A DNA stretch of 64,000 nucleotides from Hymenobacter aranciens (GTDB taxonomy: Bacteria; Bacteroidota; Bacteroidia; Cytophagales; Hymenobacteraceae): positions 62,001 through 126,000 of the forward strand of contig NZ_JAUQSY010000006.1 in NCBI RefSeq assembly GCF_030580865.1, given 5' to 3'. The notes under the pieces are model-generated. The model was not told the DNA's origin. It was given only the letters and a program-made list of their open reading frames with translations, and searched no databases. The translations under genes and the position numbers were made by a program. Of the stretch, positions 615 to 15,500 are shown in pieces (the first letter of the stretch is position 1; every line of letters starts with the position of its first letter).

Positions 615-2519
615 ATGACTGCTTCCGAAACCTGGCAACCTACGATGCCGCGCATGCCCCGCTGGCAGGTGATTGCTCTTGCAGTGTTGGCCCAGTTGCT
701 CCTATTGGCCTCTACATTCAACAGGCTGCTATTTCATCCCGGTGATTACATAATTGTGGACCATTATGACGGTGTGAAGAGCTACTTCTCCATTGCCTCA
801 TTTTTGCAGCAGCCGCTGGGCGATGGCATGCTGTTGCACGGTCATAATTACCCATTTGGCGAATACATGTACTACACCGATAGTACCCCACTGGTGGTGG
901 CCCCCTTGCACTGGTTAGTGCAAACTGTGCCGGCGCTGGCGCCATATGGCCTCTACATCTACGACTTATTCGTTCTTTCGAGCATCGTTATCAGTTCGGC
1001 GCTGCTGGTGCTGATACTGCGGCGGCTGGCCGTACCCACTGCCCTGACGCTGCTATTGGCTGTGGCTCTACCGTGGTTGGGACCGCAGACCGTACGCCTC
1101 AACGTCGGGCACATGAGCTTGGCCTACACTCCAGCCATTCTGTTTGGCATTTTGGCCTTGCAAAAGCTGTATGACGCCTGGCGCGCAGATGCTGCATTAT
1201 GGAAACCATTCAGCTTATTGTTGTTCGGTATTGTCGTCACTTCATGGCTGCACTTCTATTACCTGCCATTGCTAGGAGGCTCCCTGGCCTTCTTTGCAAT
1301 AGTACTGCTGGCTGAGCGCCCACTACGACGGCGCTGGCGGGAACTGATAGTATGCACGGGGGTCACCCTGCTTAGCTCACTGGTGCTGACTGCGGGCCTA
1401 CTCATGCTGCTCGACCCGCTTCAAGGACAGCGCGAGACACGCAGTGGCGGTTATGATTGGATAGAATGGAAATTCCAGTTCGGAGCCTTGTTTCAAGGCT
1501 ATGTGTTCACTAAAATTCGCTTTCCATTTGAGCGCACCGCTGTAGCGCCTTACGAGTCAGCGGCATACCTGACTGGTTTTGTGTTATTTGGCCTACTAGT
1601 AGTGGCTGTGTTGCTGGCAGTGCGGCGCCTGCCAGCGGGCGCCCGCCTGCCTCGTCTGGCGGCCGACGACAATGCCCGCTTCCTGCTTTATCTGCTCCTT
1701 GCCAGTTTGCCATTGGCATTCATTGCGCTGGGTGAGAATATAGAGCTGGATGGCGGAGCGTATGTGATTCATAATTACCTGAATGTATTTCGCTGGCTGC
1801 ACAAGGTTACCGACCGGGTAACCCAGTTTCGGGCACTTGGCCGCTTTATCTGGCCGTTCTGGTGGGCGGTAGTGCTGGGCTTTAGCTGGTATGTGGCGCG
1901 CTGGTGGCGTCTGGGGGGCTTGCGCTGGGTACTGCTGGCGCTGTGCGTCATCCTGGTAGTAGACACCCTCAATGCCAGGCATTTTTATCATACTGTACCT
2001 CAAAAAGACAACCTGTTTGCCTTTGGGCCGCGGTCTGAACCCGTTCGCCAGCTACTACAGCAGGTGGATAGCCACCGCTACCAGGCCCTGCTGCCATTAC
2101 CCTACTATCACAGCGGCACCGATGCGCGGGAAGGAGTCATCAATCTCATCGTGGACCCCGACGACCCGCACTGCAACGTTACTTACCAGCTATCGATATT
2201 TTCGAACTTGCCGCTGATGTCACACAAGGCTACCCGGGCCATTACGGAACAGGCGCAAGCACTGTACTCTATGTTCCGCCCTGGTGGCCCCGACCCAGCG
2301 TTTCTGGCCCGTCTCGATACACGTCCGATACTAGTATTCCTCGATACGGCCTATTACGATGGCCGCAATAATTACTACCGTGACTTGCTCAAGCCCGAAG
2401 AGCGACCTGAGATGCGAGCTATTTTCGAGCGAGGTCCCGACTTTATCCGGGAGCAGCAGATGCGCCGTCTTGCTCACCAAGGCAGTTGGTCGCTTTATGA
2501 GTGGCAGCCGCGACACTAA
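615..2519 (+). CDS. Multi-spanning GT-C-like membrane glycosyltransferase, putative
   Basis: A 634-residue integral membrane protein with about 10-12 hydrophobic helices, beginning near residue 15, and a soluble C-terminal part from roughly residue 455. The first periplasmic loop carries the acidic stretch DHYDGVKSYFSIASF followed by HGHNYPFGEYMYYTDSTP, which fits the loop-1 catalytic Asp layout of GT-C sugar transferases that use polyprenyl-phosphate sugars. No named family is certain. The ATG at 615 is chosen because a TAnnTTTG promoter box lies at 567-574. A jelly-roll lipoprotein gene follows after 62 bases in the same direction. Local GC is about 50 percent in a sampled line, well below the kynureninase gene, so this may be acquired DNA. 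Membrane protein is certain; sugar transfer is inferred. Confidence 0.7.
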   Translation: MTASETWQPTMPRMPRWQVIALAVLAQLLLLASTFNRLLFHPGDYIIVDHYDGVKSYFSIASFLQQPLGDGMLLHGHNYPFGEYMYYTDSTPLVVAPLHWLVQTVPALAPYGLYIYDLFVLSSIVISSALLVLILRRLAVPTALTLLLAVALPWLGPQTVRLNVGHMSLAYTPAILFGILALQKLYDAWRADAALWKPFSLLLFGIVVTSWLHFYYLPLLGGSLAFFAIVLLAERPLRRRWRELIVCTGVTLLSSLVLTAGLLMLLDPLQGQRETRSGGYDWIEWKFQFGALFQGYVFTKIRFPFERTAVAPYESAAYLTGFVLFGLLVVAVLLAVRRLPAGARLPRLAADDNARFLLYLLLASLPLAFIALGENIELDGGAYVIHNYLNVFRWLHKVTDRVTQFRALGRFIWPFWWAVVLGFSWYVARWWRLGGLRWVLLALCVILVVDTLNARHFYHTVPQKDNLFAFGPRSEPVRQLLQQVDSHRYQALLPLPYYHSGTDAREGVINLIVDPDDPHCNVTYQLSIFSNLPLMSHKATRAITEQAQALYSMFRPGGPDPAFLARLDTRPILVFLDTAYYDGRNNYYRDLLKPEERPEMRAIFERGPDFIREQQMRRLAHQGSWSLYEWQPRH

Positions 2520-2581
2520 GCCAGAAATTAAGCGGGCCGTTGGCTGTTCCCTTGTAATTTTACGCCCTATCCCGATTACTA

Positions 2582-3118
2582 ATGAAAGTTTGTTTTTCCC
2601 TTCTTATCGCAGCCGTAGTAGTAGCTGGCTGTAGCTCCGACCGCAATAGTCCAAACTCGAAGACGGTCATGCAAAACGACTTTGAAGGCATGAGCGGCTG
2701 GTTTCCAGATGCTCAGCTCGCCTCAATCAGCCACGATGTGGCGCACTCTGGGCGCTACTCCCTCCGAGCGGGCGCAGGTAACGAATACAGCTTATCGTAC
2801 AAAGGAGCCCTGCGCCAGATATTCGAAACCCGGCCGGCCAAAATCAAGGTATCGGGCTGGGGTTTCCTATCGACGCCCGATGCCAAAGGCACGCTGGTAG
2901 TCGCCATCAACGACCCTCTGGCGCCTGAGGGCGAGCCGCTACTCTGGGCCGGACTCGATTTGGCTGAAGCGGTGAAGAGCCCCAATAAATGGGTTGAAGT
3001 AAGCAAGACTATCGAGTTGCCAGCTACCGCCACGCCCGAAAGTGTGCTTACGATATACCTGTGGGGTAACAGCGGCCAGCCTGTTTATCTGGATGATATC
3101 CAGTTGGAGAAGGAATAG
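2582..3118 (+). CDS. Small jelly-roll-like lipoprotein, paralogue 1
   Basis: A 178-residue exported lipoprotein. The signal peptide MKVCFSLLIAAVVVAGC ends in the lipobox VAGC with Cys17 as the lipidation site; Ser at +2 suggests the outer membrane. The mature part reads like one beta-jelly-roll domain (carbohydrate-binding-module-like), with conserved landmarks FEGMSGW, AHSGRYSL, NKWVEVSKTI, LTIYLWG and a final VYLDDIQLE. The same landmarks recur in the lipoproteins at 8894, 9486 and 13586. It lies directly downstream of a GT-C-like membrane transferase, so a role in the same surface-glycan process is inferred. No enzyme motif is visible. Fold and ligand are unproven. Confidence 0.75.
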   Translation: MKVCFSLLIAAVVVAGCSSDRNSPNSKTVMQNDFEGMSGWFPDAQLASISHDVAHSGRYSLRAGAGNEYSLSYKGALRQIFETRPAKIKVSGWGFLSTPDAKGTLVVAINDPLAPEGEPLLWAGLDLAEAVKSPNKWVEVSKTIELPATATPESVLTIYLWGNSGQPVYLDDIQLEKE

Positions 3119-3124
3119 GCTCAC

Positions 3125-3883
3125 TTAACGGGGTTTCTGCGCCAGCGCAAACACGCTCACGCCCAGCGACAGACTGAGAAAGCGCAGCATACGATTTTCG
3201 AGCTTCACCCAATTCAATGTCAGGCTGTTGACCGGGCCAGCAAAGTGCTTCAGGTCGCCGGTGGAACCGGCCTCGCTTTTGGTGGGCACGAGGCCGCCCA
3301 GTAGGCGCTTGCCCAGGCGCAAGGCAGCCGTAGGAAAGTACACCGCCGTGTTTCAGAAAGAGCTACGCTCGATGCGCAAGCCTTGCTGCTCGAGGACCGT
3401 GCAAAGCCCCTGGCGCGAGTAGCGGCGGAAGTGGTGGTTCACTACGTCGTGCTCGCTCCAGAGGTAGGTGTGGGCGGGCACAAACACCAGCAGCCAGCCG
3501 CCGGGCTTCAGCACGCGCACCCATTCGTCCAGGGCGCATTGCTCATCTTCAATGTGTTCCAGCACATCAGAGGCAATTACCAGGTCGAAGCGGTTGTCGG
3601 CAAATTGCAGGTTAGCGCCATCCATTACCGACACGTTAGCCATGACGCAGGCCTGGGCCAGTTCGATGGCCGGCGCGCTTACGTTGATACCCGTCAGGTC
3701 GGTGTATCCTACGGTGCGCAGGCGCTGCAGCAGCGGGCCGCCCGAGCAGCCGATTTCCAGCACAGTGGCCGTGGGAGGCAGTTGAAGCTGCCTCACCAGG
3801 CCGTAAACCGCATCGCGGCGGCTGGCAAACCACCAGTACTATTCTTCAAGCTGATGATAACTAGCTTCGTAAGCCAGGTTCAT
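3125..3883 (-). pseudogene. Class I SAM methyltransferase interrupted by two in-frame stop codons
   Basis: One uninterrupted frame of 253 codons encodes a small SAM-dependent methyltransferase of the type found in glycan clusters: start MNLAYEASYHQLEE, a YWWF motif, the SAM-binding VLEIGCSGGP, the acidic motif VSVMDGAN, ASDVLEHIED, and LKPGGWLLVFVPAH. Two codons are stops: TAG at 3839-3841 (codon 15, just before YWWF) and TGA at 3350-3352 (codon 178, where relatives have the Trp of a WNT..FP motif, so TGG to TGA fits). No frameshift or deletion is seen, so the loss is recent, or the stops are read through or sequencing errors. It lies 20 bases downstream of the GT2 gene at 3904 in the same direction and was probably its operon partner. 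Confidence 0.78.
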
Positions 3884-3903: not shown

Positions 3904-4854
3904 TTATGCGCCAGGATTGGTTTCCGAATGCGGCGGCAAGTTGGTGTCAGCCACGAAATACAGCGGCCGCTGGCGCACATTGGCCGACAGGCGGGCCAGG
4001 TACTCCCCAATGACGCCAACGGCAATCAACTGCACTCCTCCCAGAAATAAAATACTGACCATCAACGAAGCCCAGCCCGGTTCGTAGCTGTGCGAAATGA
4101 AGCGCGAATACAGCGTGTAAAGCATTACTACGAACGCAATGCCTGACACGGCAAAGCCCATGAGCGTGGCCCCTTTCAGCGGCGCATCCGAGAAAGCCGT
4201 GATGCCGTCGAGGGCCAGGCGAATCATCTTGCGATAGGTGTAGCCGGTTTCGCCACCGGCGCGCTCGGCGCGGTCGTACTCCACAAAAGTCTGCCGGTAG
4301 CCAATCCAGGAAATCTGGCCCCGCAGAAATTTATTTTGCTCGGGCATACGCCGCAGGCCCTCCACTACCTTCCGCGAAATGATACGGAAGTCGCCAGTAT
4401 CGACGGGAATAGAAACGTTGGTAATACTGGCCAGAATCCGATAGAATAAGCGGGCAGTCAGCTTTTTGGCCGCGCTTTCACCCTGTCGCGAGCGGCGCCG
4501 GGCATACACAACCTCGTAGCCCTCGCGCATTTTCTGGTAGAGTTCCGGAATGAGCTCCGGCGGGTCCTGCAGGTCGGCATCGATGATGACGACGGCCTCA
4601 CCGGCGGCCCGGTCGAGGCCAGCCGTGACGGCAATCTGGTGGCCGAAGTTGCGGCTTAGGTCGATGTAGCGCACCCGCTCGTCGCGGGCGGCCAGCAGGT
4701 GCAACAGGTGCAACGACTGGTCACGCGAGCCGTCGTTGATAAAAATAAACTCGAAGCTCACCCGCATGCTTTCCAGCACGCCCAGCAGGCGGGTATAAAG
4801 GGCGTCGATATTTGCCTCTTCGTTGTAAATGGGGATGATAATTGAGAAATCCAT
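3904..4854 (-). CDS. GT2 polyprenyl-phosphate sugar transferase with two C-terminal membrane helices (GtrB/DPM1-like)
   Basis: A 316-residue protein. The N-terminal GT-A domain starts MDFSIIIPIYNEE, has NDGSRD near 40-45, the NFGHQ motif at 69-73 and the metal-binding DADLQDP with Asp92/Asp94. Two C-terminal transmembrane segments lie around 232-255 and 267-290. This is the architecture of GtrB and related enzymes that load a sugar from a nucleotide donor onto undecaprenyl phosphate at the inner face of the membrane, making the donor used by GT-C enzymes. ATG 4854 is preferred over an ATG 45 bases upstream because it begins the GT-A strand directly. The broken methyltransferase follows after 20 bases; the paralogue at 5555 lies upstream. 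The sugar cannot be told from sequence. Confidence 0.88.
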   Translation of the reverse strand: MDFSIIIPIYNEEANIDALYTRLLGVLESMRVSFEFIFINDGSRDQSLHLLHLLAARDERVRYIDLSRNFGHQIAVTAGLDRAAGEAVVIIDADLQDPPELIPELYQKMREGYEVVYARRRSRQGESAAKKLTARLFYRILASITNVSIPVDTGDFRIISRKVVEGLRRMPEQNKFLRGQISWIGYRQTFVEYDRAERAGGETGYTYRKMIRLALDGITAFSDAPLKGATLMGFAVSGIAFVVMLYTLYSRFISHSYEPGWASLMVSILFLGGVQLIAVGVIGEYLARLSANVRQRPLYFVADTNLPPHSETNPGA

Positions 4855-5554
4855 AGCGGAAAAATAAGGCCTTGGCAAGAAGTATGGTGGCAGCGACAAG
4901 GCGTTACCCTGCTAAAAATCAGGACCTGGAAAGCAATAACATTTTTTGGCAGTGATTATTCCATTGCAATTCTACCACCCGCAGGGGCGTATTGAGCGGG
5001 GCGTAATACGCGGGGGCACACAATGAAGCGTTTAAGAATTGTGTTTGGTGCTTCTTTTCGCAAAAAAAGGGGGATAAACGCGGGCGAAATGCGAGCAAGT
5101 ACTGTATCCTAGTTTCATAACGCACAAGTAAGGTTCTGAAACTGTTAAGCCAAGCATTAATGTGCCTGATAACGCACTGACGCAGAATAATTCGCTATCA
5201 AACCACGTATCGTCATCGATTTGCCAGCAGGTAGCACGCAACTTGTGGGCAATACTGGCTTGGATACGGTGGGCTGTGCGTAAATGGTTAAAATTCATTT
5301 CATAAAAAAATATATAAACCATTTTTAAAACAGAACACTAACTCGATTCAACATGCCTTTATCATAAGGCAAAAAGGTGATGGGCGCATCTCAAACTTCG
5401 CTCAATTTTGGAATTCCTTTATTACTTCCTAAACGGCTTCAAAAGCTATTCTGGATACTGTCTCAGGTTACGGCTGCGGCAATACATATGGAAAAAAAAA
5501 TTTAAAAAAATACACATCTTCATAAATTATTTTACTCACCAAAAAAACAACTAC
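4855..5554. other. 700-base spacer without a recognisable gene, partly AT-rich
   Basis: No credible coding frame is seen between the two GT2 genes. The part around 5290-5560 is strikingly rich in A and T runs compared with the rest of the window, for example the poly-A/T tracts near 5300 and 5490-5530. Short open frames on the minus strand at 4919-5322 have no recognisable motif. It could be the scar of a lost gene or a regulatory leader for the GT2 gene at 3904, whose start lies at its left end. Confidence 0.5.
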
Positions 5555-6526
5555 CTATTCGCTACTGGTAGTGCGGCGACGGCGCCCAAGCGGGAGCAAA
5601 CCTGCATCAGTTTCGCGCACCAGATAAGGCGGACGGGCTTTCGACTGTACGAACAGCCGGCCGAGGTATTCACCCATGATACCCAGCACCAGCAGTTGAA
5701 TACCGCCAATGAAGAGCACACTCACCAATACCGACGTCCAACCGGCAATAGCCTGTGTGGTGAAAAATGCAATATATAACGCATACAGCGCATAAAGAAA
5801 AGCTAGTCCCGATACAACTGCGCCCGCCAACGTGGCAAAGTGCAGTGGTCGTACGCTAAAGGAAGTGATACCGCTCAGAGCCAGTTGCACCATCTTACGC
5901 AGGGTATATTTGGTAGCTCCTCGGAAGCGCGGCTCGGGTGTATATTCCACTTTCTTTTGGCGGAAACCTACCCAATGCACAAAGCCCCGCAGAAATAGCT
6001 CCACGTCGGGACTAGCCTGAATAACTTCTGCTACCCGACGGTCGATGAGACGGTAATCCGCCGTGCCTGGTTCAAAATCCACGCTCGACAATCCATTCAT
6101 CAATTGGTAAAATGCATTGGATGTCCGACGCTTAAACCATGACAATTGCTGGTCTTCCTGCCGTTGCGTATACACTATGTCGTAGCCTTCCTGCCAGTAG
6201 GCCAGCAAGGTTGGAATCAGACGAGGAGGGTGTTGCAAATCGGCGTCGAGCGAAATAATGCAGTCGCCCGAGGCATAATCAATTCCTGCCCGCAAGGCGC
6301 TCTGATGGCCAAAATTGCGCGACAGCAATACATAATGAATATCGGGGTCAGTAGCACGTAGTTCACGTAACACCCGCTGCGTGTCATCGCGTGAACCATC
6401 ATCAACAAAAATCAGCTCCCGCTCATAGCCGTTTGGGAGGTTTTCCTTAATTCGATGGGCAACTTCTAGTAGGTTCTCTTCCTCGTTGTAGGCAGGAATA
6501 ACGACTGATATTTTCACAAATGACAC
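5555..6526 (-). CDS. GT2 polyprenyl-phosphate sugar transferase with two C-terminal membrane helices, paralogue
   Basis: A 323-residue protein of the same architecture as the product of 3904-4854: GT-A core starting VKISVVIPAYNEEEN, VDDGSRDD at 41-48, NFGHQ at 71-75, metal-binding DADLQHP with Asp94/Asp96, then two transmembrane helices near 230-255 and 265-290. It should load a sugar onto undecaprenyl phosphate for use by the GT-C-like proteins nearby. No ATG is in frame near the 5' end; GTG at 6526 is chosen, with a second GTG three codons later as alternative. The tail RPPYLVRETDAGLLPLGRR is polar. A decayed third copy lies just upstream at 6608-6859, pointing to local GT2 duplication. Confidence 0.87.
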   Translation of the reverse strand: MSFVKISVVIPAYNEEENLLEVAHRIKENLPNGYERELIFVDDGSRDDTQRVLRELRATDPDIHYVLLSRNFGHQSALRAGIDYASGDCIISLDADLQHPPRLIPTLLAYWQEGYDIVYTQRQEDQQLSWFKRRTSNAFYQLMNGLSSVDFEPGTADYRLIDRRVAEVIQASPDVELFLRGFVHWVGFRQKKVEYTPEPRFRGATKYTLRKMVQLALSGITSFSVRPLHFATLAGAVVSGLAFLYALYALYIAFFTTQAIAGWTSVLVSVLFIGGIQLLVLGIMGEYLGRLFVQSKARPPYLVRETDAGLLPLGRRRRTTSSE

Positions 6527-6607: not shown

Positions 6608-6859
6608 AATGTAATGGCAAGTACTGACCATCAGCAAAGTCTGACCCAACTCGTAGTTGTGCAAAATAAAGCGCGAGCATAGTGCACCGAGCATCACCAA
6701 AAACACGATACCCGGCCCGGCAAAGGCCATACGCGTGGCGGAATTTAACACAAGCCACAGGCTTGGACTGCGAGCAAACTTTATGTGTGACGTACAACAC
6801 GGAGCCGCTGGCATAGAGTAGATGCCATACTTTTGTAGCCTGTAACCTGTCCGACCGCT
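6608..6859 (-). pseudogene. Decayed remnant of a GT2 sugar transferase (C-terminal region)
   Basis: In the minus frame ending at the stop at 6605-6607, the segment ATRMAFAGPGIVFLVMLGAL and what follows (through SRFILHNYELG and LLMVS) aligns without gaps with the first C-terminal membrane helix of the GT2 at 3904-4854 (ATLMGFAVSGIAFVVMLYTL): 24 of 40 residues by my count are identical. Upstream, SGRTGYRLQKYG corresponds to GGETGYTYRKMI of the intact protein. The catalytic GT-A domain is missing and the frame stops right after the match, before the second helix. It sits immediately upstream of the intact paralogue in the same orientation, so it is probably a relic of a tandem duplication. Confidence 0.65.
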
Positions 6860-7280
6860 TTTCTGATACTCTGAACACTGTTTTGTTTTTACTTCTTCCC
6901 GCTTTTGGTTGTCTGGCAAAAATTTCTTGGCCATATCATTGGAGAAGTCTGGTGTTCAAGCGCGCTGGCTGCTTCGAGGCAGGCCTCCTGCCCGAAGCGT
7001 TACTGCTGACGGTTGCTATCTATATTTCTCATGGCGGTGGCACGGTGCCCGCCCTTTTCAGCTTCGCTTCCCTTCGTGAGCTATTATTACCGGCTGCGCT
7101 ACTTCGCCCCCTTACCAATCTGGTGAAAGTATCAGAATCACCTATTAATGACAGCTCTTATCAAAACGACCTTAAGCCTGTGCCGAAGCAAAATGGATGG
7201 CGCTACGCGGCCTTATCCAGCGAATGAACCTGCAGTTGACATCGCTCTGATTTAAAATTTCGATTCTTCACCCTTCTCGC
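6860..7280. other. Spacer with no supportable gene
   Basis: About 420 bases between the GT2 remnant and the next membrane transferase. A plus-strand open frame at 6883-7227 has no signal peptide, motif or repeat I recognise and overlaps the remnant, so I do not call it. It may contain further decayed sequence of the lost GT2 N-terminal part, but I cannot align it by eye. Confidence 0.4.
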
Positions 7281-8864
7281 TTGAATTCATCTTCCTCCAT
7301 CGCCTCAACACCGTACCAGCGCCTGCTTAGCCGGCCGCACCATTTGGCTGCTGCGTTACTGTTGACCGGGGTCGCAGCGGTGTACTACCTACCTTTCCTG
7401 CACGAGCTCCCGACAGCTATCCACACTTGGGCACAATCAGACCGTTTTTCGCTGGCGCTCAATTTTTATGATTACGGTTTTCATTTTCTGACGCCGCGTA
7501 CCTCGTCGCTCACTTCTATTGGTGGCGTGACGGGCGTCGAGTTTCCCCTGCAGGCGTATCTGGCGGCGCTGGGCGGGCTGGTATTCGGGCGGGATAATAT
7601 CGTGGCCGTGTTCCGGGGCCTTGACGTAGTTATGACGGTGCTGGGCTTCTTCTACATGTTCCGGCTTATTTATGAGCGAACCGGGCATTTTGTGGCCGGG
7701 CTAGTACCAGCGGCTTTTCTACTGGCTTCGCCGTTTTTTGCCTTCTATGCGGGCAGCTTTTTACCCGACCCGTTCAGCCTTAGTCTCAGCTTTATTGCCT
7801 ACTTCTACTGGTTGCGGTTTTTCGACCAGCGTCAGTTTTCAGACCTGCGGCGGGCATTGCTTTTACTAGCACTGGCTGGCCTTATTAAAACAACTACTGC
7901 TTTGCTATTTGGCTCAGTAGTGGGCATCACCGTGCTGTGGGCTTATTTCGACCCCACCCTGCTGCTGCCACGGGAGCGTTGGCAGTTGCTGGTTTGGGCC
8001 GGCTTGGGCTTGGGTGTAATTGGCTACTTCTTCCTACACAATCAACAGTTGAATGAAATATACCACTCGGGGCAGTTTCGGGCCTCAACCAACCCGGTGC
8101 AAGACCCCGAAACGTGGCACGAACTGCAACAATCGGTGCGGCGCTACTGGTGGCTGGAGTACGCTACCCGTACGCACTATCGCATACTGGCCGTATGCGC
8201 CGTACTATTACTGGGCTTCGCCCGGCCAAACCTACGTCGCTACTTACCCCTCACGCTGCTGCTGCTAGCCTCGGTGGCAGTGGCAGGCGTTTTCGTGCTG
8301 GTGATGGGCAGCGGCCTCAGTATTCACGATTACCACTGGATTTGTTCATTCGTGCCGCCAGCGCTCCTGCTATTATTGCTGGGGCTACTGAATTTAAGCC
8401 AGTACACCGGCCGAATTCGCCACGCTACTACCCTGCTTTTCGCCGCACTAACAATCTTTCTGATAGTTATTGGCTATAAGCGGCTGAACCGCCGGATGAG
8501 CGATGACTACCTTCCCTTATCGCAGTACTATACCCATCAATGGATGCGCGGCGGGGCTGCCGAAATGCAACAAGCCCGCGTACCGACCACGGCCAACGTG
8601 CTATATGTGGCCGACGCCGTTAACGTAGCGCAAGTGTACTTCGACCGGCGAGGCATTTCCTGGGAGCCGGCCGATGTAGGTGCCGTGCCGGTTGATGATT
8701 ACCTGAACATGATGGCGGCCGACAGCCTCGATTATCTGGTGTTTTCGCCCACTGACTTTAACCGGCTGGCCCCGCAACAGGCCGCCTTAGCGGCAGCCTT
8801 CGAAACGATAGGCCAGCGCCCGGCCGTAATTCTTCGCCGCCGCGACCGCCAACGCCCGTGGTAA
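7281..8864 (+). CDS. GT39/ArnT-like membrane glycosyltransferase, putative
   Basis: A 527-residue integral membrane protein with about 10-11 helices and a short soluble C-terminal region after about residue 400. After the first helix comes the loop HELPTAIHTWAQSDRFSLAL; the acidic Asp-Arg pair there is the loop-1 catalytic position of dolichyl/undecaprenyl-phosphate sugar transferases of the PMT/ArnT (GT-C) group. The next loop, FLTPRTSSLTSIGGVTGVEFP, is typical of Bacteroidota members. No ATG is near the 5' end, so TTG 7281 is taken as start. Two jelly-roll lipoproteins follow at 8894 and 9486 in one apparent operon. The expected donor would be a polyprenyl-phosphate sugar made by the GT2 enzymes nearby; the acceptor is unknown. 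Confidence 0.78.
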   Translation: MNSSSSIASTPYQRLLSRPHHLAAALLLTGVAAVYYLPFLHELPTAIHTWAQSDRFSLALNFYDYGFHFLTPRTSSLTSIGGVTGVEFPLQAYLAALGGLVFGRDNIVAVFRGLDVVMTVLGFFYMFRLIYERTGHFVAGLVPAAFLLASPFFAFYAGSFLPDPFSLSLSFIAYFYWLRFFDQRQFSDLRRALLLLALAGLIKTTTALLFGSVVGITVLWAYFDPTLLLPRERWQLLVWAGLGLGVIGYFFLHNQQLNEIYHSGQFRASTNPVQDPETWHELQQSVRRYWWLEYATRTHYRILAVCAVLLLGFARPNLRRYLPLTLLLLASVAVAGVFVLVMGSGLSIHDYHWICSFVPPALLLLLLGLLNLSQYTGRIRHATTLLFAALTIFLIVIGYKRLNRRMSDDYLPLSQYYTHQWMRGGAAEMQQARVPTTANVLYVADAVNVAQVYFDRRGISWEPADVGAVPVDDYLNMMAADSLDYLVFSPTDFNRLAPQQAALAAAFETIGQRPAVILRRRDRQRPW

Positions 8865-8893: not shown

Positions 8894-9451
8894 ATGATGG
8901 CCGCACGCCTGAAATCCAGCCTATCGCTGCTGCTGTTGGGCCTGCTAACGCTACCGGGCTGCCACCCCCGCGACGGACGGGCTCCCCTGCAGGAACGCGA
9001 GCTGATGCAGACTAGTTTTGAGGAATTGGATGGCTGGGGAACAGACCTCCCGGGCCTCACTACCGAAAAGGCGCACTCGGGACGCTATGCGGTTCGCTCG
9101 TCGCCGCAGCAGCCATTTACTGTTACGTACCGGGCGGCGCTGGGCCGGCTCAGCCCGCACCATCGGCCGTTGCGGCTCACGCTCGGCGCCTGGGTGTGGG
9201 TGCCCACGCCCTACGACGACGCTCGCATAGTTTTGTCCATCGTGCCCGCCAATGACCCGGACCATCCGCTACTCAGCCAGAGCATTTTCCTGAGTGACAG
9301 TCGTCCTTACGGCCAGTGGAAATATGTGAGCCGAAGCTTCAACATGCCCGACGGCATTCATTCGGACCATCGCGTGGTCATTTATTTGTGGAACGGCTCG
9401 GCGGGCGCGCCAGTGTACGCCGACGACCTGCGCCTCACCGAGCTATGGTAG
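8894..9451 (+). CDS. Small jelly-roll-like lipoprotein, paralogue 2
   Basis: A 185-residue lipoprotein starting MMAARLKSSLSLLLLGL, with a lipobox-like TLPGC (Cys23). The mature part has the same landmarks as the other three paralogues: FEELDGW, AHSGRYAV, WVWVPTPYDDA, GQWKYVSRSF, VVIYLWNG and VYADDLRL near the end. ATG 8894 is preferred over a GTG at 8858 that overlaps the upstream gene and would place extra residues before the signal peptide; the spacing to the upstream stop is then 29 bases. It is the middle gene of the apparent operon 7281-8894-9486. Function unknown; a glycan-binding or glycan-carrying outer-membrane role is inferred from fold-like motifs and context. Confidence 0.75.
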   Translation: MMAARLKSSLSLLLLGLLTLPGCHPRDGRAPLQERELMQTSFEELDGWGTDLPGLTTEKAHSGRYAVRSSPQQPFTVTYRAALGRLSPHHRPLRLTLGAWVWVPTPYDDARIVLSIVPANDPDHPLLSQSIFLSDSRPYGQWKYVSRSFNMPDGIHSDHRVVIYLWNGSAGAPVYADDLRLTELW

Positions 9452-9485: not shown

Positions 9486-10028
9486 ATGAGATACGCGTTT
9501 TTTTGCCTCGTCGCCCTGTGCCTGGCGGGCTGCAGTTCTGCTACCAACCAAGCCGAAACGGCCAACATCCTGCTGACAAATAGCTTTGAAACTGTGAGCG
9601 GTTGGCTACCCGACGACCAGACCGCCACGCTCACGCATGAGCAGGCGCACTCCGGCCGCACGGCGCTCAAGGTAGATGACGCACACGAGTACAGCCTCAC
9701 GTACAGCAAGCCACTGGAATATTTCCACCTGACGCTACCCGTCAAACTGCGCGTAACGGCTTGGGTATTGCGCCCCAGCGCGCAGGCTTACGCCTCACTG
9801 GTTATTTCCGTAACCGACCCGGCTGCGCCCAGCGCCCCAGCCCTGCTGTGGCAGGATATCAAGCTGAATGAAGCCGGGAATAGCTACGGCAAGTGGGAGA
9901 AAGTAAGCCAGGTAGTCACGCTGCCCGTCGGGCTTCAGAACACGCACAAGCTGAGCCTGTACTTGTGGCGCACCGGCTCCGGCGCGGCCACTTACCTTGA
10001 TGATATTCAGGTAAGCCGCGAGCCATAA
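9486..10028 (+). CDS. Small jelly-roll-like lipoprotein, paralogue 3
   Basis: A 180-residue lipoprotein with signal MRYAFFCLVALCLAGC; the lipobox LAGC puts lipidation at Cys16, Ser at +2. Landmarks are shared most closely with paralogue 1: FETVSGWLPD, AHSGRTAL, EYSLTYSKPL, ISVTDPAAP, LLWQDIKLNEA, GKWEKVSQVV, LSLYLW and YLDDIQVS. It begins 34 bases after paralogue 2 and ends 12 bases before the convergent GT2 at 10041. The close similarity to the lipoprotein at 2582 suggests recent duplication of a transferase-lipoprotein unit. Molecular function unknown. Confidence 0.75.
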   Translation: MRYAFFCLVALCLAGCSSATNQAETANILLTNSFETVSGWLPDDQTATLTHEQAHSGRTALKVDDAHEYSLTYSKPLEYFHLTLPVKLRVTAWVLRPSAQAYASLVISVTDPAAPSAPALLWQDIKLNEAGNSYGKWEKVSQVVTLPVGLQNTHKLSLYLWRTGSGAATYLDDIQVSREP

Positions 10029-10040
10029 TAGTGGCCAGCC

Positions 10041-10766
10041 CTACCCGCGCAGTAACCCGTAGCGCCCAATGCAGTAGATGGCCCGAAACCCGTCGCGCCA
10101 GCCAATTTTCTTGCCCTCGGCGTAGGTGCGGCCGTAGTAGCTGATGCCGACTTCGTAGATGCGCACGCCCGGCACCCGCGCCACCTTGGCCGTCACTTCG
10201 GGCTCGAAGCCGAAACGTTGCTCCACCAGCTTCAGATTCTGAATAATATCGCGCCGAAAAAGCTTGTAGCAGGTTTCCATGTCGGTCAGGTTCAGGTCGG
10301 TGACCATATTCGACAGGAAGGTGAGGAACTTATTGCCGATGCTATGCCAGAAAAACAGGATGCGGTGCGGCTGGCCACCCATAAAGCGCGAGCCAAACAC
10401 CACGTCGGCAAAGCCTTTGAGCACGGGGCGCAGCAGCAGGTTGTATTCCTCGGGGTCGTATTCCAGGTCGGCATCCTGGATGATGACATAGTCGCCGGTA
10501 GCTTCGCGAATGCCCGTATGCAGCGCAGCGCCTTTGCCTTGGTTTACGGCATGTTCCAGCAGGCGCAGGTTCATTTCCGGGTAGCGCTCGGCATAGGCCC
10601 GGATGGTGGCGGCCGAGGCATCGGTTGAGCAATCGTTGACGAGAATAATCTCCTTGCCGATACCATTTACCAGTTCCAGCCTGCGCAGCAAATCCAGAAT
10701 CTGGTGCACGGTGCGGGCCTCGTTATAAACGGGAATGATGATGGAAAGCGTGCTGATTTGAATCAC
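10041..10766 (-). CDS. GT2 polyprenyl-monophosphate sugar synthase, soluble DPM1-like
   Basis: A 241-residue GT-A protein without membrane helices. Motifs: [14 protein letters not shown] at the N-terminus, ILVNDCSTD at 41-49, [12 protein letters not shown] near 75-85, metal-binding DADLEYDP with Asp98/Asp100, and the family-typical FGSRFMGG and [13 protein letters not shown] segments. This matches DPM1-type dolichol/polyprenyl-phosphate mannosyltransferases. GTG 10766 is taken as start; an ATG 66 bases upstream would add an atypical leader. It would supply lipid-linked sugar for the GT-C-like proteins at 615, 7281 and 14184. Convergent with the lipoprotein at 9486. Confidence 0.86.
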
Positions 10767-10886
10767 GGCAACGGGTATTCGCGAACGGCAAAAGTACGCC
10801 GGCTCGTGGCGCAGCATAGCATTCTGCGCCACGAGCCGGCGTCGCTCCGCACCCGGTAGCCAGCGGGCGCGGCCTTAGCGTCCGCC

Positions 10887-11672
10887 TTACAGGCTGCCGG
10901 TGCGCCCGCCATCCACTGGCACGCTGGTACCGTTGATATAGCCCGCCGCCGGCGAAGCCAGGAAAGCCACGGCCGCCGCCACCTCTTCGGCCTGCCCGAA
11001 GCGCCGGGCCGGAATAGTTTTCAACATGGCATCTTCCACTTGCTCGGTGCTCTGGCCGGTCTGGGCTACTTTCTTCTCGATAAGCGAAGTATGGCGTTGC
11101 GTGACGGTGGCGCCCGGCAGCACGTTGTTTACCGTAATGCCGTCGGCGGCCAGCTCGTTGGCCAGCGTTTTGGCCCAGCTGGCCACGGCTCCGCGAATGG
11201 TATTGCTCACGCCCAAGCCCGCCAGCGGCACCTTCACCGAGGTGCTGATGATGTTGATGATGCGCCCGAAACCGGCCGCCCGCATGCCCGGTACCACGGC
11301 CTGCACCAGCAGGTGGTTGCAGATAAGGTGCTGGTTGAAGGCCGCCAGAAAGGCCGAGGTGGGCGCGTCGATGATGGGGCCGCCGGCCGGGCCGCCGGTA
11401 TTGTTCACCAGAATGTGGAAGCCGGCCGGGTGCTGGGCCAGGTACGCGCGCACCACCTGGTCGAGGTGAGCGGGGTCGTTGAAATCGGCCACCAGGAAGT
11501 CGTGCGTCTGGCCGGCGGGCGTGGGCAGCTCGGCGGCGGCCTGGCGCAGGGCGTCGGCGTTGCGGGCCAGCAGGGTCACGGTGCAGCCGCGCTCGGCCAG
11601 CGTCTGGGCTACGGCCCGGCCAATGCCCTGGGTGCTGCCGCCCACAAGGGCGCGAAGGTTGAGGAAGTCCAT
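10887..11672 (-). CDS. SDR-family oxidoreductase lacking the catalytic tyrosine
   Basis: A 261-residue Rossmann protein starting MDFLNLRALVGGSTQGIGRA. The nucleotide-binding motif is GGSTQGIG rather than TGxxxGIG, and NNTGG replaces NNAG. The Ser of IISTS is present, but at the YxxxK position the sequence is LGVSNTIRGAVASWAKTL, with Asn in place of Tyr. This agrees with the BKR-like SDR subgroup known to deviate from the classical tetrad. ATG 11672 is chosen over one 48 bases upstream because the Rossmann strand begins at once. It is divergent from the 3-hydroxyanthranilate dioxygenase gene (131 bases apart), which suggests a link with kynurenine catabolism; the reaction is unknown and it may not be a redox enzyme. 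Confidence 0.82.
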   Translation of the reverse strand: MDFLNLRALVGGSTQGIGRAVAQTLAERGCTVTLLARNADALRQAAAELPTPAGQTHDFLVADFNDPAHLDQVVRAYLAQHPAGFHILVNNTGGPAGGPIIDAPTSAFLAAFNQHLICNHLLVQAVVPGMRAAGFGRIINIISTSVKVPLAGLGVSNTIRGAVASWAKTLANELAADGITVNNVLPGATVTQRHTSLIEKKVAQTGQSTEQVEDAMLKTIPARRFGQAEEVAAAVAFLASPAAGYINGTSVPVDGGRTGSL

Positions 11673-11803
11673 AGTTGTGGAGGGATGAGGGTAGGAGGAG
11701 TTGGGCCACAAAGTTGGCACCTGATGCGGCAGTATGCAGTAATTTGCCGAGGCAAACCCCAGGCACCCCCTCCTCCCCCTCCCACCCCAACCCCTCCCGC
11801 CCC

Positions 11804-12328
11804 ATGATAACCCGCGCCTTCAACTTCCAGCAGTGGATTGACGAACACCGCCACCTGCTCAAGCCTCCGGTGGGCAACCAGCAGGTGTTCAAAGACAACA
11901 AGGATTTTATCGTGATGGTGGTGGGCGGCCCCAACTCGCGCAAAGACTACCATGTGGACGAGGGTGAGGAGTTGTTTCTGCAAATTGAGGGCGAGATGAC
12001 CGTCAAAATTATCGAAGACGGCAAGCCCGTAGACATTCACATGAAGGCCGGCGACATGTTTCTGCTGCCGCCCAACGTGCCGCACTCGCCGCGCCGCCCG
12101 GCCGGCGGTGTGGGTCTGGTGATTGAGCGCTACCGCACGCCCGGCGAACTAGATGGCTTTCAGTGGTACTGCGAAAACTGTGGCAATAAGCTCTACGAGG
12201 AGTTTGCCGAAATCACGGACATCGTGACGCAGCTGCCGCCCATCATGAATGCCTTCTGGGCCGATGACGACAAGCGTACCTGCAAGGTGTGCGGCACTTA
12301 CATGGAGGCACCGGCCAAGGTGGCATAA
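11804..12328 (+). CDS. nbaC: 3-hydroxyanthranilate 3,4-dioxygenase
   Basis: A 174-residue cupin enzyme that opens the ring of 3-hydroxyanthranilate to 2-amino-3-carboxymuconate semialdehyde using Fe(II) and O2. The iron ligands of the family are visible as His50, Glu56 (in DYHVDEGEELF) and His94 (in LPPNVPHSPRRP); Arg46 and Arg98 fit the substrate-carboxylate positions. The C-terminal rubredoxin-like metal site of bacterial enzymes is present as Cys123-x2-Cys126 and Cys160-x2-Cys163. Length is normal. The next plus-strand gene encodes the decarboxylase that uses the product; a long inverted repeat separates the two. Cytoplasmic. Identification is secure. Confidence 0.96.
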   Translation: MITRAFNFQQWIDEHRHLLKPPVGNQQVFKDNKDFIVMVVGGPNSRKDYHVDEGEELFLQIEGEMTVKIIEDGKPVDIHMKAGDMFLLPPNVPHSPRRPAGGVGLVIERYRTPGELDGFQWYCENCGNKLYEEFAEITDIVTQLPPIMNAFWADDDKRTCKVCGTYMEAPAKVA

Positions 12329-12335
12329 CCGCTTA

Positions 12336-12467
12336 CCAGAACGTCATCCTGAGCGACGAAGGAGCGAAAGGACCTCGCCCGCGCCGCGTGCAATAGTAAT
12401 GAATTACTACCCCCAACGAAGCAGGCGAGGTCTTTTCGCTCCTTCGTCGCTCAGGATGACGTTCTGG
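12336..12467. repeat. Long inverted repeat (44-base arms, 44-base loop), interspersed-hairpin type
   Basis: Arms at 12336-12379 and 12424-12467 are reverse complements with 43 of 44 bases paired; the arm begins CCAGAACGTCATCCTGAGCG. It fills the gap between the dioxygenase and decarboxylase genes, starting 7 bases after one stop and ending 16 bases before the next start. The core CGTCATnCTGAGC resembles the shorter hairpin at 63073-63113. It looks like a member of a dispersed palindromic repeat family; as RNA it would form a very stable hairpin inside the operon message. Confidence 0.85.
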
Positions 12468-12483
12468 GTTGTAACCCCACTCC

Positions 12484-13500
12484 ATGCTTTCCATCGACAT
12501 CCATACCCACATTCTGCCCGAGCGCTGGCCCGACCTTAAGGAGCGCTACGGCTATGGGGGATTCATCCGGCTTGACCACCACAAGCCCTGCTGCGCCCGC
12601 ATGATGCAGGACGACAAGTTCTTCCGCGAAGTGCAGGACAACTGCTGGGACCCGCAGGTGCGCATACACGAGTACGACCAGCACGGCGTGCAGGTGCAGG
12701 TGCTGAGCACCGTGCCCGTGATGTTCAGCTACTGGGCCAAGCCCCACGACTGCCTCGATTTGAGCATGCTGCTCAACGACCACATTGCCGGCGTGGTGGC
12801 GCGCTACCCCACGCGCTTCGTGGGCCTGGGCACGGTGCCCATGCAGGCGCCCGATTTGGCCATTAAGGAGTTGGAGCGCTGCCTGAAAATCGGGCTGGCC
12901 GGCATCCAAATCGGCTCGCACATCAACGACTGGAACCTCGACGCGCCAGAGCTATTCGAGGTTTTTGCCGCCGCCGAGGAGCTGGGCGCCTGCGTGTTTG
13001 TGCATCCCTGGGACATGATGGCCCAGCAAAAAATGCCCAAATACTGGCTGCCCTGGCTGGTGGGCATGCCCGCCGAAAGCACCCTGGCCTTGTGTTCTCT
13101 CATCTTCGGCGGGGTGCTGGAGCGGCTGCCGCGGCTGCGCGTAGCGGTGGCGCACGGCGGGGGCTCCTTCGCCAGCACCATCGGCCGCATCGAGCACGGC
13201 TGGCAAGTGCGGCCCGACCTATGCGCCATTGATAATCCGCACAATCCGCGCAAATACCTGGGCAAGTTCTGGGTCGATTCGCTGGTGCACGACCCGCTGA
13301 TGCTGGAGTACCTGGTGAAAACTTTGGGCGCGGATAAAATTACCCTCGGCACCGATTATCCGTTTCCGCTGGGCGAGCTGGTGCCGGGCGAGCTGATTAA
13401 GTCGATGCCGTTTTCGGACGACCTCAAGGCCCGGATGCTGGGGCAGAATGCGCTGGACTGGCTGGGACTGGCGCGGGAGCGGTTTAGCGCTAAACACTGA
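12484..13500 (+). CDS. nbaD: 2-amino-3-carboxymuconate-6-semialdehyde decarboxylase (ACMSD)
   Basis: A 338-residue amidohydrolase-fold, zinc-dependent decarboxylase that converts ACMS to 2-aminomuconate 6-semialdehyde and so diverts the pathway from quinolinate. Visible signatures: DIHTHILPE with metal-binding His7 and His9, FVHPWDM with a further ligand His, AVAHGGG, and the C-terminal [11 protein letters not shown] holding the metal-binding Asp. Length matches bacterial NbaD and human ACMSD. ATG 12484 is 16 bases past the inverted repeat. It acts after 3-hydroxyanthranilate dioxygenase (upstream gene) and before the semialdehyde dehydrogenase at the left edge of the window. Confidence 0.95.
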
Positions 13501-13556
13501 GCCCTAAAAGTCGCCAGCTGTCAGGCCAACACTAAGCTTCACCGGGAGTTGCCAGC

Positions 13557-13564
13557 TAACTTTG
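13557..13564 (+). promoter_or_regulatory. Bacteroidota-type -7 promoter box
   Basis: TAACTTTG is an exact match to TAnnTTTG, 21 bases before the TTG start at 13586. I see no convincing TTTG at -33. It marks a new transcription unit for the lipoprotein 13586 and membrane protein 14184, separate from the decarboxylase. Confidence 0.5.
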
Positions 13565-13585
13565 CGCTTGAATTTGTAAAGGCAA

Positions 13586-14194
13586 TTGATTTTGAAAGAC
13601 GCAAAAGCTGTTTTATTCTTAGGAGCATTTGTCCTATTCACTTATTGCTTTATCCCCGGATGCACGCCCCCGCCGCCGGGCAAAATTGTGCTTTCAACCG
13701 GCTTTGAGCTACCGGCAACCGGGCCACAGCCGGTAGTACCGGAAATGCCGCCGGTAATGCTGAGCAACGAGCAGGTGCATAGCGGAAGCCAAGCCGTAAA
13801 GCTGGATAAAAACCAGCCTAACGCTCTCTTATGTGGCACTACCTGGCAGGCCCTTGGCGGTGCCTCTTGGAAAGAGGATGACCGGTCGCACCACCTGCGG
13901 CTACGCCTGTGGGCATGGATGCCCTACGACCGGCAGAACGCCGTTGTTGTAACCGTACTGGCCCAGCGTCCCAGCCCGACGCCTGGGGCGGGCGCCACGG
14001 TGCTGCACATACAGCGGCTGGCGTTGAACAAAGTAATCAGCCAGTATCAGCAGTGGATGCCGACCACAGTATTCGTATCGCTGCCGCATGAACTACAGCC
14101 GCTGGACGAAATAGCAATATGCGCTTGGGGCCAACACATTGGCGACCGCAATGCCGTGTATATAGACGATGTTTCCCTTGAAAATGCAGACTAG
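13586..14194 (+). CDS. Small jelly-roll-like lipoprotein, paralogue 4 (divergent)
   Basis: A 202-residue lipoprotein with no ATG near its 5' end; TTG 13586 is chosen because it gives a full signal peptide (LILKDAKAVLFLGAFVLFTY) ending in FIPGC, Cys26, and lies just after a TAnnTTTG box. Pro-rich spacer TPPPPGK follows. Shared landmarks with the other paralogues are STGFELP, VHSGSQAVKL, LRLWAWMPYDRQN, QQWMPTTVFVSL, ICAWG and the closing VYIDDVSLEN. Its 3' end overlaps the start of the PIG-V-like membrane protein gene, so the two are translationally coupled. Function unknown; context suggests surface glycan assembly. Confidence 0.72.
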   Translation: MILKDAKAVLFLGAFVLFTYCFIPGCTPPPPGKIVLSTGFELPATGPQPVVPEMPPVMLSNEQVHSGSQAVKLDKNQPNALLCGTTWQALGGASWKEDDRSHHLRLRLWAWMPYDRQNAVVVTVLAQRPSPTPGAGATVLHIQRLALNKVISQYQQWMPTTVFVSLPHELQPLDEIAICAWGQHIGDRNAVYIDDVSLENAD

Positions 14195-15500
14195 CGTATC
14201 CGCTACCCCTTCGCCAACGCCGGGACTGGCGTGGCTGCCTGCGTTGGCCAGCCACGCCCTGTTGCTAATGGTGGTGTATGCCGCGCTTTACTCGTTTGGC
14301 ATCCTCACCACCGCCCCTACTGCCAAGACGCTCATCAGCTGGGACGCCGGCTGGTTCAACTCAGTGCGCACCAACGGCTACGAGGCAGGGACCGGTCAGA
14401 CGAACATTCCCTTTTTTCCGCTCTTTCCCTACCTGTGGCGTTTATCTGGCCTCAATGGACTGGGGATTAGCATTGTCAATGCTTGCTTTATGTTTCTGGG
14501 CAGCGTTTGGCTGGGGCGCACCTTCTCGCTGTCGCGCCAGCAGCTACTGGTGCTGCTAGCTACCCCACCGCTGTTTTTTTGCCTGGTGCCGTATGCCGAA
14601 GGGCTCTTCTTTCTGTTTGGGGCGGTATTGCTGCACGGGCTGCACCGGCGTCACCTTGCCTTCACCATCCTGGGGCTGCTGGGCTGCTGCCTGACCCGCT
14701 CGGCAGCCACTCTTTTCATTCCGGCGTTTGTGTTTGCCGAACTGCTGGCCTGCACTTCCCGCGCCGAGGTGTCGCAGTTTGCCCTGCGCCTGCTGACGGG
14801 CTTGCTGGCCATCGCCGCCGCGCTGGGCATCGTTATGTACATGCATTTCCTGGCCACCGGCGACGCCTTTGCGCTGTTCAACTCCTATCAGCACTGGGGC
14901 CATGAGATGCGCTGGCCGCCAGCTGCCCGGCTGTTTAGCTCAGCAGGCCTGCCCATGCTGGGGCTCGACTTGCTGGCCATGCTGGCGAGCAGCCTGGCCG
15001 TAGTTGCCTGCCTGTGGCTGGGCATTCGCTGGCTGCGCAGCTGGTGGCAGCCCCAGGCAGTGCCGGCGCCTTCGCGGGCCGTGGTTTTTTCGTTGGGATA
15101 CTGTGTTGGCGTGTTTGCGTTTATGGTGCTTTACCAGGAGGGCGACTTGTCCAACAGCAGCCGGTATGTGCTGGGTACGCCCTTTTTTGCCGTCCTCCTG
15201 CTTCAGCTCTCAGCCTGGCAGCGCCTTACGGCGGGCGTGCGCTGGGTGAGCGCCGGAATAGCCCTGGCCTTGGTCATCGCGCTAGCCATGTGGTGTGGCT
15301 GGCCAGCCCGCATGCCGGGCTTTTTCCCGGGCGAAGCCACTTTTTTCTTTGCCGCCTGGCTGGGGTACCTGCTCTGCTATGTGGCAGCTTTCACTACCAA
15401 TCGGTACGGGCGCGATATCCGCATTGGGCTGTACGTCGTCAACACCATCTACCAGATAATACTGCTCAATCTTTTTATCGGCGGCGCCTGGATGGGATAG
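14184..15500 (+). CDS. PIG-V-like GT-C membrane mannosyltransferase, putative
   Basis: A 438-residue membrane protein with about 10-12 helices. Loop 1 reads SWDAGWFNSVRTNGYEAG, the WD..W/F...GY signature of the PIG-V/Mannosyl_trans2 group, followed by FFPLFPYLWR and VPYAEGLFFLFG, also hallmarks of that family (in eukaryotes the second GPI mannosyltransferase). The Asp of WDAGW is the likely catalytic base. ATG 14184 gives an 11-base overlap with the lipoprotein stop; an in-frame ATG at 14169 is the alternative. Expected donor is a polyprenyl-phosphate hexose; the acceptor is unknown but could be, or be bound by, the coupled lipoprotein. Confidence 0.8.
   Translation: MQTSVSATPSPTPGLAWLPALASHALLLMVVYAALYSFGILTTAPTAKTLISWDAGWFNSVRTNGYEAGTGQTNIPFFPLFPYLWRLSGLNGLGISIVNACFMFLGSVWLGRTFSLSRQQLLVLLATPPLFFCLVPYAEGLFFLFGAVLLHGLHRRHLAFTILGLLGCCLTRSAATLFIPAFVFAELLACTSRAEVSQFALRLLTGLLAIAAALGIVMYMHFLATGDAFALFNSYQHWGHEMRWPPAARLFSSAGLPMLGLDLLAMLASSLAVVACLWLGIRWLRSWWQPQAVPAPSRAVVFSLGYCVGVFAFMVLYQEGDLSNSSRYVLGTPFFAVLLLQLSAWQRLTAGVRWVSAGIALALVIALAMWCGWPARMPGFFPGEATFFFAAWLGYLLCYVAAFTTNRYGRDIRIGLYVVNTIYQIILLNLFIGGAWMG

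Follow-up and report, generated by a model that had tools for sequence, protein, structure and literature searches.

The subject of this study is a locus of Hymenobacter aranciens in which genes for small lipoproteins lie beside genes for membrane proteins that resemble glycosyltransferases of fold class C (GT-C). It is part of a stretch of 64,000 nucleotides, referred to below as the window (assembly GCF_030580865.1, contig NZ_JAUQSY010000006.1, positions 62,001-126,000, forward strand). Positions 615-15500 of the window hold three multi-helix membrane proteins, four lipoproteins of 178-202 residues and three genes of glycosyltransferase family 2 (GT2), all of them where a preliminary description of the same DNA had placed them. 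The membrane proteins are GTC_A (615..2519, plus strand; 634 residues, nine hydropathy peaks), GTC_B (7281..8864, plus strand; 527 residues) and GTC_C (14184..15500, plus strand; 438 residues, ten hydropathy peaks). LIPO1 (2582..3118, plus strand; 178 residues, lipobox VAGC) follows the first of them, LIPO2 (8894..9451, plus strand) and, in tandem with it, LIPO3 (9486..10028, plus strand) follow the second, and LIPO4 (13586..14194, plus strand) precedes the third, with which it shares an 11-nucleotide overlap of reading frames that bears out the earlier remark that one pair is translationally coupled. Because the genes adjoin and some relatives have both parts fused in one protein, a lipoprotein and the GT-C-like protein next to it very likely work together as a two-part enzyme, a reading drawn from sequence and gene order.

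The lipoprotein family and its predicted fold

The sequence comparisons confirmed that the four lipoproteins form one family beyond chance, as their description as paralogues had proposed. Their alignment has 22 invariant columns, and a profile built from the four, when run against the 6.0-Mb genome, gave no match at E <= 1 besides the four themselves. An independent hidden Markov model (HMM), which was built from 129 relatives with the window sequences excluded and the relatives of LIPO4 removed, recovered LIPO1 to LIPO4 at 2.9e-61, 9.8e-59, 5.7e-54 and 2e-18, respectively (E for four sequences). When all of the called proteins were searched with this model, LIPO4, the most divergent member, was recovered from a shortened gene call (2.9e-15). 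The landmarks by which the family had been recognised stood only in part: FE, HSG and YxDD are present in all four, while GW is absent from LIPO4, VY is replaced by TY in LIPO3, and KW..VS, which is exact in LIPO1 and LIPO3, reads QW..VS in LIPO2 and is reduced to the W alone in LIPO4.

The predicted fold of the family is a beta-sandwich of the CBM16/CBM22 type, i.e., that of a carbohydrate-binding module (CBM), which agrees with the jelly-roll-like fold suggested previously. The AlphaFold2 model of LIPO1 had a mean pLDDT of 90; its top Foldseek match was the CBM22 structure 4xup (1.6e-7), and a second structural aligner placed the CBM16 structure 2zew first (Z 13.7, 141 residues aligned, root-mean-square deviation (rmsd) 3.3) and gave a Z of 12.8 for 4xup. 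The alignment of 53 members, when compared with the PDB sequences, matched the same CBM22 pair of a xylanase (4xup, 8.1e-18), and PF02018 (CBM_4_9) was matched by 36 of these 53 members at E <= 0.01. Searched singly against Pfam, LIPO1 was just above the cut-off for PF02018 (1.4e-5), LIPO2 was below it (0.0021), and LIPO3 and LIPO4 had no match apart from the lipid-attachment motif. The CBM22 match shares the opening FE..GW, the strands that carry sG and KW and the closing D-D/E strand, which indicates that the landmarks are largely signatures of the CBM fold.

Pairing with GT-C-like genes, and fused forms

The profile of the four window lipoproteins had matches in 114 of the 120 genomes that were searched within the genus. 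From the matches listed, 80 regions of about 20 kb were picked by hand, one from each of 80 of these genomes, which together with the window gave 81 regions (fetched regions are labelled L and a number below). Genes were predicted using a home-made codon-usage caller, which misses genes in A+T-richer genomes such as that of L165, and proteins were taken as GT-C-like when they had at least 330 residues and at least six hydropathy peaks. These were clustered using BLAST, and seven small clusters (nine proteins; transporter-like or other families) were excluded by eye. According to the caller, 79 of the 81 regions, the window included, have a stand-alone lipoprotein of the family.

Tabulation of the neighbouring genes showed that the next gene on the same strand, with tandem lipoproteins skipped, was GT-C-like for 124 of the 159 stand-alone members. 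A GT-C-like gene was found within 1 kb of 143 members, eight members being in regions without one. Immediate GT-C-like neighbours on the same strand numbered 101. Shuffling the genes of whole regions gave 40.4 +- 5.0, and shuffling confined to the locus core gave 74.5 +- 5.0 (maximum 94 in 300 shuffles); these shuffles take no account of the shared ancestry between genomes. A second set of 20 regions from 19 genomes (18 of them new), which was searched with models built from the first set, gave a similar picture: 27 of 28 members were paired with a GT-C-like gene, and there were 23 immediate neighbours against 15.4 +- 2.3 in shuffles (maximum 22; 17 regions). The caller missed the lipoproteins of L165, L166 and L167 (three of the 20 regions), which were left out of the 28; the one in L165 has a GT-C-like partner and the one in L167 lies near a cluster-3 protein.

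Pairing differed markedly between the families of membrane proteins. A lipoprotein neighbour on the same strand was found for 25 of 28 members of cluster 3, for all members of clusters 7 (13/13) and 9 (12/12), for 18 of 22 members of cluster 4, which is the family of GTC_B, and for six of nine members of cluster 10, the family of GTC_C. Clusters 0 (29/46), 5 (6/20), 11 (3/7) and 16 (2/2) were intermediate, and no such neighbour was seen in clusters 2 (0/29), 6 (0/18), 8 (0/13) and 12 (0/6) or in the small clusters 13 (0/3), 14 (0/2) and 17 (0/2). In cluster 1, the family of GTC_A, the only same-strand pair among 44 members is that of this window, so the GTC_A/LIPO1 pair is not a recurrent one. 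Overall, the earlier observation of a repeated pairing was confirmed, with GTC_A and LIPO1 as the atypical pair. A general rule by which every GT-C-like gene has a same-strand lipoprotein was rejected, as it fails for clusters 1 (bar one member), 2, 6, 8 and 12. A lipoprotein that adjoined solely on the opposite strand was found for 22 of 44 members of cluster 1, 17 of 18 of cluster 6 (e.g., L041:8055-9887 (+)), four of 20 of cluster 5 and four of 13 of cluster 8.

The lipoproteins themselves appear to be matched to their partners. The six best relatives listed for LIPO2 all adjoin cluster-4 enzymes, the best relative of LIPO4 precedes a cluster-10 enzyme, and the partners of the LIPO1 relatives are mixed or absent. 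For 89 of 113 lipoproteins, the nearest counterpart in another genome had a partner of the same family, compared with 70.5 +- 4.7 after partner labels were shuffled within genomes (maximum 86 in 300). Pairs were also found outside the usual setting. One genome has a lipoprotein gene and a cluster-9 gene side by side at a distance of 1.1 Mb from the main locus, and no further locus gene was called in their vicinity. In L120, which comes from another family of the order, a lipoprotein adjoins a PMT_2 enzyme (7.4e-19); GT2 and methyltransferase genes are present in this region and no kynurenine gene was found in it, which suggests that the kynurenine-pathway genes that flank the Hymenobacter locus are probably not part of the function.

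The membrane proteins resemble GT-C enzymes to different degrees. GTC_B, a PMT_2-type protein (PF13231, 2.5e-7), is the sole membrane protein of the window that is recognisable as GT-C by its sequence, and hhalign linked its family to the PMT_2 cluster 8 (92%). For GTC_A and GTC_C, no Pfam match and no usable PDB sequence match were obtained, and the representatives of 13 of the 16 GT-C-like clusters that were scanned had no Pfam match above the cut-off. GTC_A resembles GT-C enzymes only in its topology and in a conserved Asp that follows its first helix, and GTC_C has an invariant WD after its first helix. Inspection by eye showed an Asp, invariant or nearly so, shortly behind the first helix in 11 of the 13 larger families; it was not seen in cluster 4 and comes later in the sequence in cluster 3. 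In hhalign comparisons, cluster 1 matched cluster 2 (95%) with no clear link to the PMT_2 families, and the families of GTC_A and GTC_C reached at most 26% against the clusters with PMT_2 matches. Judging by its motifs, GTC_C may be PIG-V-like; PF04188 was silent in the genome and in all of the controls and is hence uninformative.

Fused forms were identified using an HMM of 141 stand-alone lipoproteins. Thirty longer proteins of the first regions matched it (599-649 residues, four to ten hydropathy peaks, E 8.9e-22 to 2.9e-6), with the lipoprotein domain at the C-terminus (residues 453-642, coordinates obtained via a related model), and five further fused proteins were found in the second set. 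Profile-profile comparison supported the fusion at 99.6%; the comparison of GTC_B with the fused family gave 1.2% on small alignments and 82% on larger ones. In four genomes from another family of the order, the profile matched frames of 631-670 residues, which in three of the four regions fetched corresponded to called proteins with five to ten hydropathy peaks (1e-10 to 1e-7), the gene in L122 being uncalled. A hit in L156 with two hydropathy peaks was left out of the count as a probable artefact of the caller. Another genome of the genus Hymenobacter has a fused protein away from the usual locus (L137:9570-11357 (-); 5.5e-8 with the stand-alone-lipoprotein model, four hydropathy peaks).

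A model of one fused cluster-0 enzyme, that of H. montanus (L142:17000-18844), was built from 14 sequences and had a pLDDT of 81 and a pTM of 0.80. Its membrane part matched ALG12 (Z 24.7), ArnT (Z 21.1), STT3/OST (up to 21.1) and PglB (17), and Foldseek matched the protein to OST at 1.1e-5. Its tail matched CBM16 (Z 10.9) and a porphyran-binding CBM (Z 11.4), so that, as predicted from this model, the fused protein is a GT-C enzyme joined to a CBM. Alignments with EmbB and EmbC cover both parts at an rmsd of 13-14, which means that the relative placement of the two parts is either different from that in EmbB and EmbC or uncertain. Long forms of the GTC_A family (742-792 residues, e.g., L068:5164-7524 (-)) have an extra C-terminal tail that reached 23.5% in hhalign against the CBM-like domain; this is suggestive only, and these proteins may carry a CBM-like tail of their own. 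The copy in the window is the short form without the tail, and eight other tails were under 1%. A domain that follows the last helix lies on the opposite side of the membrane from a cytoplasmic N-terminus if the number of helices is odd, and a lipoprotein is also outside the cytoplasm. The active sites of GT-C enzymes lie at the periplasmic face. Under this condition on the helix number, the free and fused domains can occupy the same place, on the side of the membrane where GT-C active sites are located.

The fused forms bear directly on what the lipoproteins do. The preliminary description had proposed that they may be acceptors, carriers or accessory subunits, of which the accessory subunit is now well supported by the family-specific pairing, the fusion and the distant lone pair; an acceptor or carrier is less likely because the domain has a CBM fold and occurs as the membrane protein's own C-terminal domain. 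That the lipoproteins would be glycoproteins modified by the neighbouring GT-C is suggested by their proximity to glycosyltransferases and by the frequent O-glycosylation of Bacteroidota proteins. Nevertheless, we consider it highly improbable: a substrate would not be expected as the C-terminal domain of the enzyme, as it is in 30 proteins, and no Asp-Ser/Thr site is found in those columns of the 53-member alignment that are invariant or almost so.

Somewhat less remote, though still unlikely, is a role of the lipoproteins as free proteins that hold glycan or anchor it at the surface, in which case they would keep the completed polysaccharide in place and their link to the glycan locus would be one of gene position only. 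Lipoproteins with a CBM fold would suit such a role, as would the orphan copy in L166. Against it stand the fusion to an enzyme, the family-specific pairing and the distant lone pair, and the lipoproteins appear to have no strong acidic export signal: at least two acidic residues at positions +3 to +6 (Cys being +1) were found in 25 of 143 members, compared with four of 52 other lipobox-like proteins, which are a poor control, and the export signal may differ in Hymenobacter. That the lipoproteins are unrelated to each other or are chance neighbours of the membrane proteins was ruled out by the independent HMM, the fusions and the pairing in both sets of regions.

Proposed mechanism and known systems

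The three GT2 genes of the window, GT2_1 (3904..4899, minus strand), GT2_2 (5555..6526, minus strand) and GT2_3 (10041..10832, minus strand), may supply the donor. GT2_1 is a GtrB/PgfS/ArnC-like protein with two hydropathy peaks that has a counterpart in 68 of the 81 regions, GT2_2 is a second GtrB/PgfS-like enzyme, and GT2_3 is an AglJ/Dpm1-like enzyme with a counterpart in 54 regions. Matches of the GtrB-like GT2 type to the profiles of PgfS (9.1e-85) and ArnC (1.2e-51) fall short of the curated thresholds that define those particular enzymes, and GT2_1 is a probable polyprenyl-phosphate sugar synthase. As GT2 genes are present in 78 of the 81 regions, we infer that a polyprenyl-phosphate sugar is the GT-C donor.

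In the mechanism that we propose, the GT2 enzymes of the locus would charge polyprenyl phosphate with a sugar, and the GT-C protein, judging from its fold, would attach this sugar, on the periplasmic side, to a glycan. The membrane-anchored CBM lipoprotein, which would face the periplasm, would bind the acceptor glycan and hold it at the active site, by analogy with EmbC, AftD and GT136; the acceptor may be lipopolysaccharide, capsule or a glycoprotein glycan. We give a probability of roughly 60% to the reading in which the lipoprotein is a CBM subunit detached from a periplasmic GT-C glycosyltransferase, whose acceptor it holds.

Parts of this arrangement are known from other organisms. According to PMC11127046, the GT-C enzymes EmbA, EmbB, EmbC, AftD and the GT136 enzyme ORF12 have a CBM in cis, and the CBM of EmbC is important for catalysis. 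The Hymenobacter system is predicted to share with these enzymes a GT-C core and a periplasmic beta-sandwich CBM, whereas the CBM of the window is a separate lipoprotein that exists in several copies for several GT-C families. A Mycobacterium CBM was also not among the structural matches listed for LIPO1, the Hymenobacter domain being CBM16/22-like. Lipoproteins that aid GT-C enzymes in trans have been described in mycobacteria, i.e., LpqZ with AftA and both FecB and MMAR_1667 with AftB, and the authors suggest that lipoproteins of the LpqZ/FecB type may replace missing CBMs (PMC12802301). Contrary to the Hymenobacter family, LpqZ and FecB have substrate-binding-protein and predicted beta-propeller folds rather than that of a CBM, and the consulted passages of PMC12802301 make no mention of a fused form. 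The GtrA/GtrB/Gtr systems of O-antigen modification are similar in that a GtrB-like GT2 and a GT-C enzyme are encoded in a strain-variable locus. The Hymenobacter locus differs from them in its additional CBM-fold lipoproteins, in its mean of 3.4 GT-C-like genes per 20-kb region and in the GtrA-family flippase, for which no match above the cut-off was found in the genome and one below it at E 0.04, in a search that was positive in 11 of 14 control genomes (seven above the cut-off).

A further parallel, Gpi14/PIG-M with Pbn1/PIG-X, underlies a less probable alternative to the acceptor-holding role, in which the lipoprotein is a structural or allosteric stabiliser of the GT-C protein and its CBM fold has lost sugar binding. 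Here, a GT-C enzyme is accompanied by an accessory subunit whose luminal domain is rich in beta structure, and the Gpi14-Pbn1 structure shows contact between the GT-C subunit and a luminal lobe of two sheets, although Pbn1 has a transmembrane anchor, is eukaryotic and, in the consulted passages of the source, has a role that is not described as glycan binding (PMC12653191). The pairing, fusion and family specificity would fit a stabiliser equally well, and several of the conserved landmarks that are shared with the CBM22 match may be structural. What speaks for acceptor binding is that the family is closest to the glycan-binding CBM16 and CBM22 and that the isolated CBM of the GT136 enzyme ORF12 bound the acceptor O-polysaccharide (PMC11127046).

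Several observations weigh against the acceptor-holding reading or narrow it. According to PMC11127046, the GT136 enzyme did not need its CBM for activity under the conditions tested. Most of the clusters were classed as GT-C solely from their topology, and GTC_A and GTC_C solely from topology and context. A same-strand GT-C neighbour is lacking for 35 of the 159 members, some perhaps because of missed genes. The lipoprotein of L166 is an orphan, no GT-C gene having been found within its 20 kb, and a weak relative in L125 is also without one. In L119, a relative of the lipoproteins (9806-10267 (+)) lies beside an MBOAT acyltransferase (PF03062, 2.5e-35) with no GT-C called, and the CBM subunit may thus serve another membrane transferase. 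A lipoprotein also adjoins 21 of the 28 fused cluster-0 enzymes, which shows that the two forms are not simple replacements of each other and rules out a strict complementarity in which an enzyme would have a fused CBM or a lipoprotein and never both. Among the families with six or more members, those with a short C-terminal tail were partnered more often (59 of 75) than those with a long one (54 of 192), which favours the reading, but by family this contrast is only a trend (Spearman -0.52, p 0.067, 13 families). Finally, the opposite-strand neighbours of clusters 1 and 6 mean that the contrast between families may partly reflect position in the locus; this softens the family contrast and leaves the fusion and the recurrent pairs unaffected.

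A search of open-access full texts turned up neither a description of CBM lipoproteins in partnership with GT-C enzymes nor one of this Hymenobacter locus. The earlier remark that no system with this layout is known must nevertheless be qualified, as GT-C enzymes with CBMs in cis and lipoproteins that aid such enzymes in trans have been published (PMC11127046 and PMC12802301). What is new, and well supported as a partnership, is the CBM lipoprotein paired with a GT-C protein; CBMs in cis and lipoprotein helpers in trans were already known. This suggests that acceptor recognition by GT-C enzymes can be assigned to a lipid-anchored CBM subunit, which is detachable and suited to the individual enzyme. 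Fused and split forms within one genus provide a natural test of what CBMs contribute to GT-C enzymes, and many unannotated membrane-protein families gain a likely role.

The locus across genomes and other features of the window

The distribution of the family is narrow. A profile of 53 rows matched 120 of 204 genomes of the family Hymenobacteraceae, in two of six genera. In the order, 61 of 390 genomes were matched at E <= 0.001, those outside the family mostly weakly, and in the phylum 10 of 395 at E <= 1e-5, of which four were from the genus and six were weak (9.6e-10 or worse). All 26 of the named loci are from Hymenobacter. The lipoprotein family sits mostly in one locus: 74 of the 79 regions with a stand-alone member have one of the presumed kynurenine-pathway genes SDR, HAAO, ACMSD or KYNU within the same 20 kb. 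GT2 and methyltransferase genes lie on the other side from this kynurenine flank, with varying membrane proteins between them. In many of the regions L039-L118, the glycan cassettes are interleaved with the kynurenine genes, sometimes between HAAO and ACMSD.

The 17 GT-C-like families occurred in 64 different combinations in the 81 regions, a count that is inflated because regions were cut at 20 kb and some genes were missed. Such strain-to-strain variation of the GT-C-like set is as expected for a locus that varies a surface glycan, and the set of GT-C proteins and lipoproteins of a strain probably determines its surface glycan. More tentatively, and with more doubt than conviction, the locus may be a genus-wide cassette system built on an interchangeable two-part unit, a GT-C engine and a matched, acceptor-selecting CBM lipoprotein, whose pairs would be shuffled to diversify the surface glycan and would exist in fused, split and relocated versions.

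The remaining genes between 615 and 15500 include the conserved flank of the locus, i.e., an SDR dehydrogenase (10887..11720, minus strand; present in 58 of 81 regions) and the presumed kynurenine-pathway genes HAAO (11804-12328) and ACMSD (12484-13500), both on the plus strand, which flank or are interleaved with the cassettes. A gene for an S-adenosylmethionine (SAM) methyltransferase (3131..3883, minus strand) is broken by two in-frame stop codons (tblastn 53% identity, residues 1-246); an intact gene is found in, e.g., L128, and the methyltransferase of the locus is present in 42 of 81 regions. A decayed remnant of a GT2_1-like gene (6623..6871, minus strand; tblastn 40% identity, 1.9e-8) and, weakly, a possible remnant of a GTC_B-like gene (7052..7207, plus strand; tblastn 39% identity, E 0.003) may reflect a turnover in which cassettes are duplicated and decay. 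Scans for promoters and terminators performed no better than on shuffled sequences. Elsewhere in the window, in the gap before the gene at 19552-23385, positions 19231-19440 hold a 42-nucleotide tandem repeat of about 4.5 copies with a higher-order unit of 84 nucleotides.

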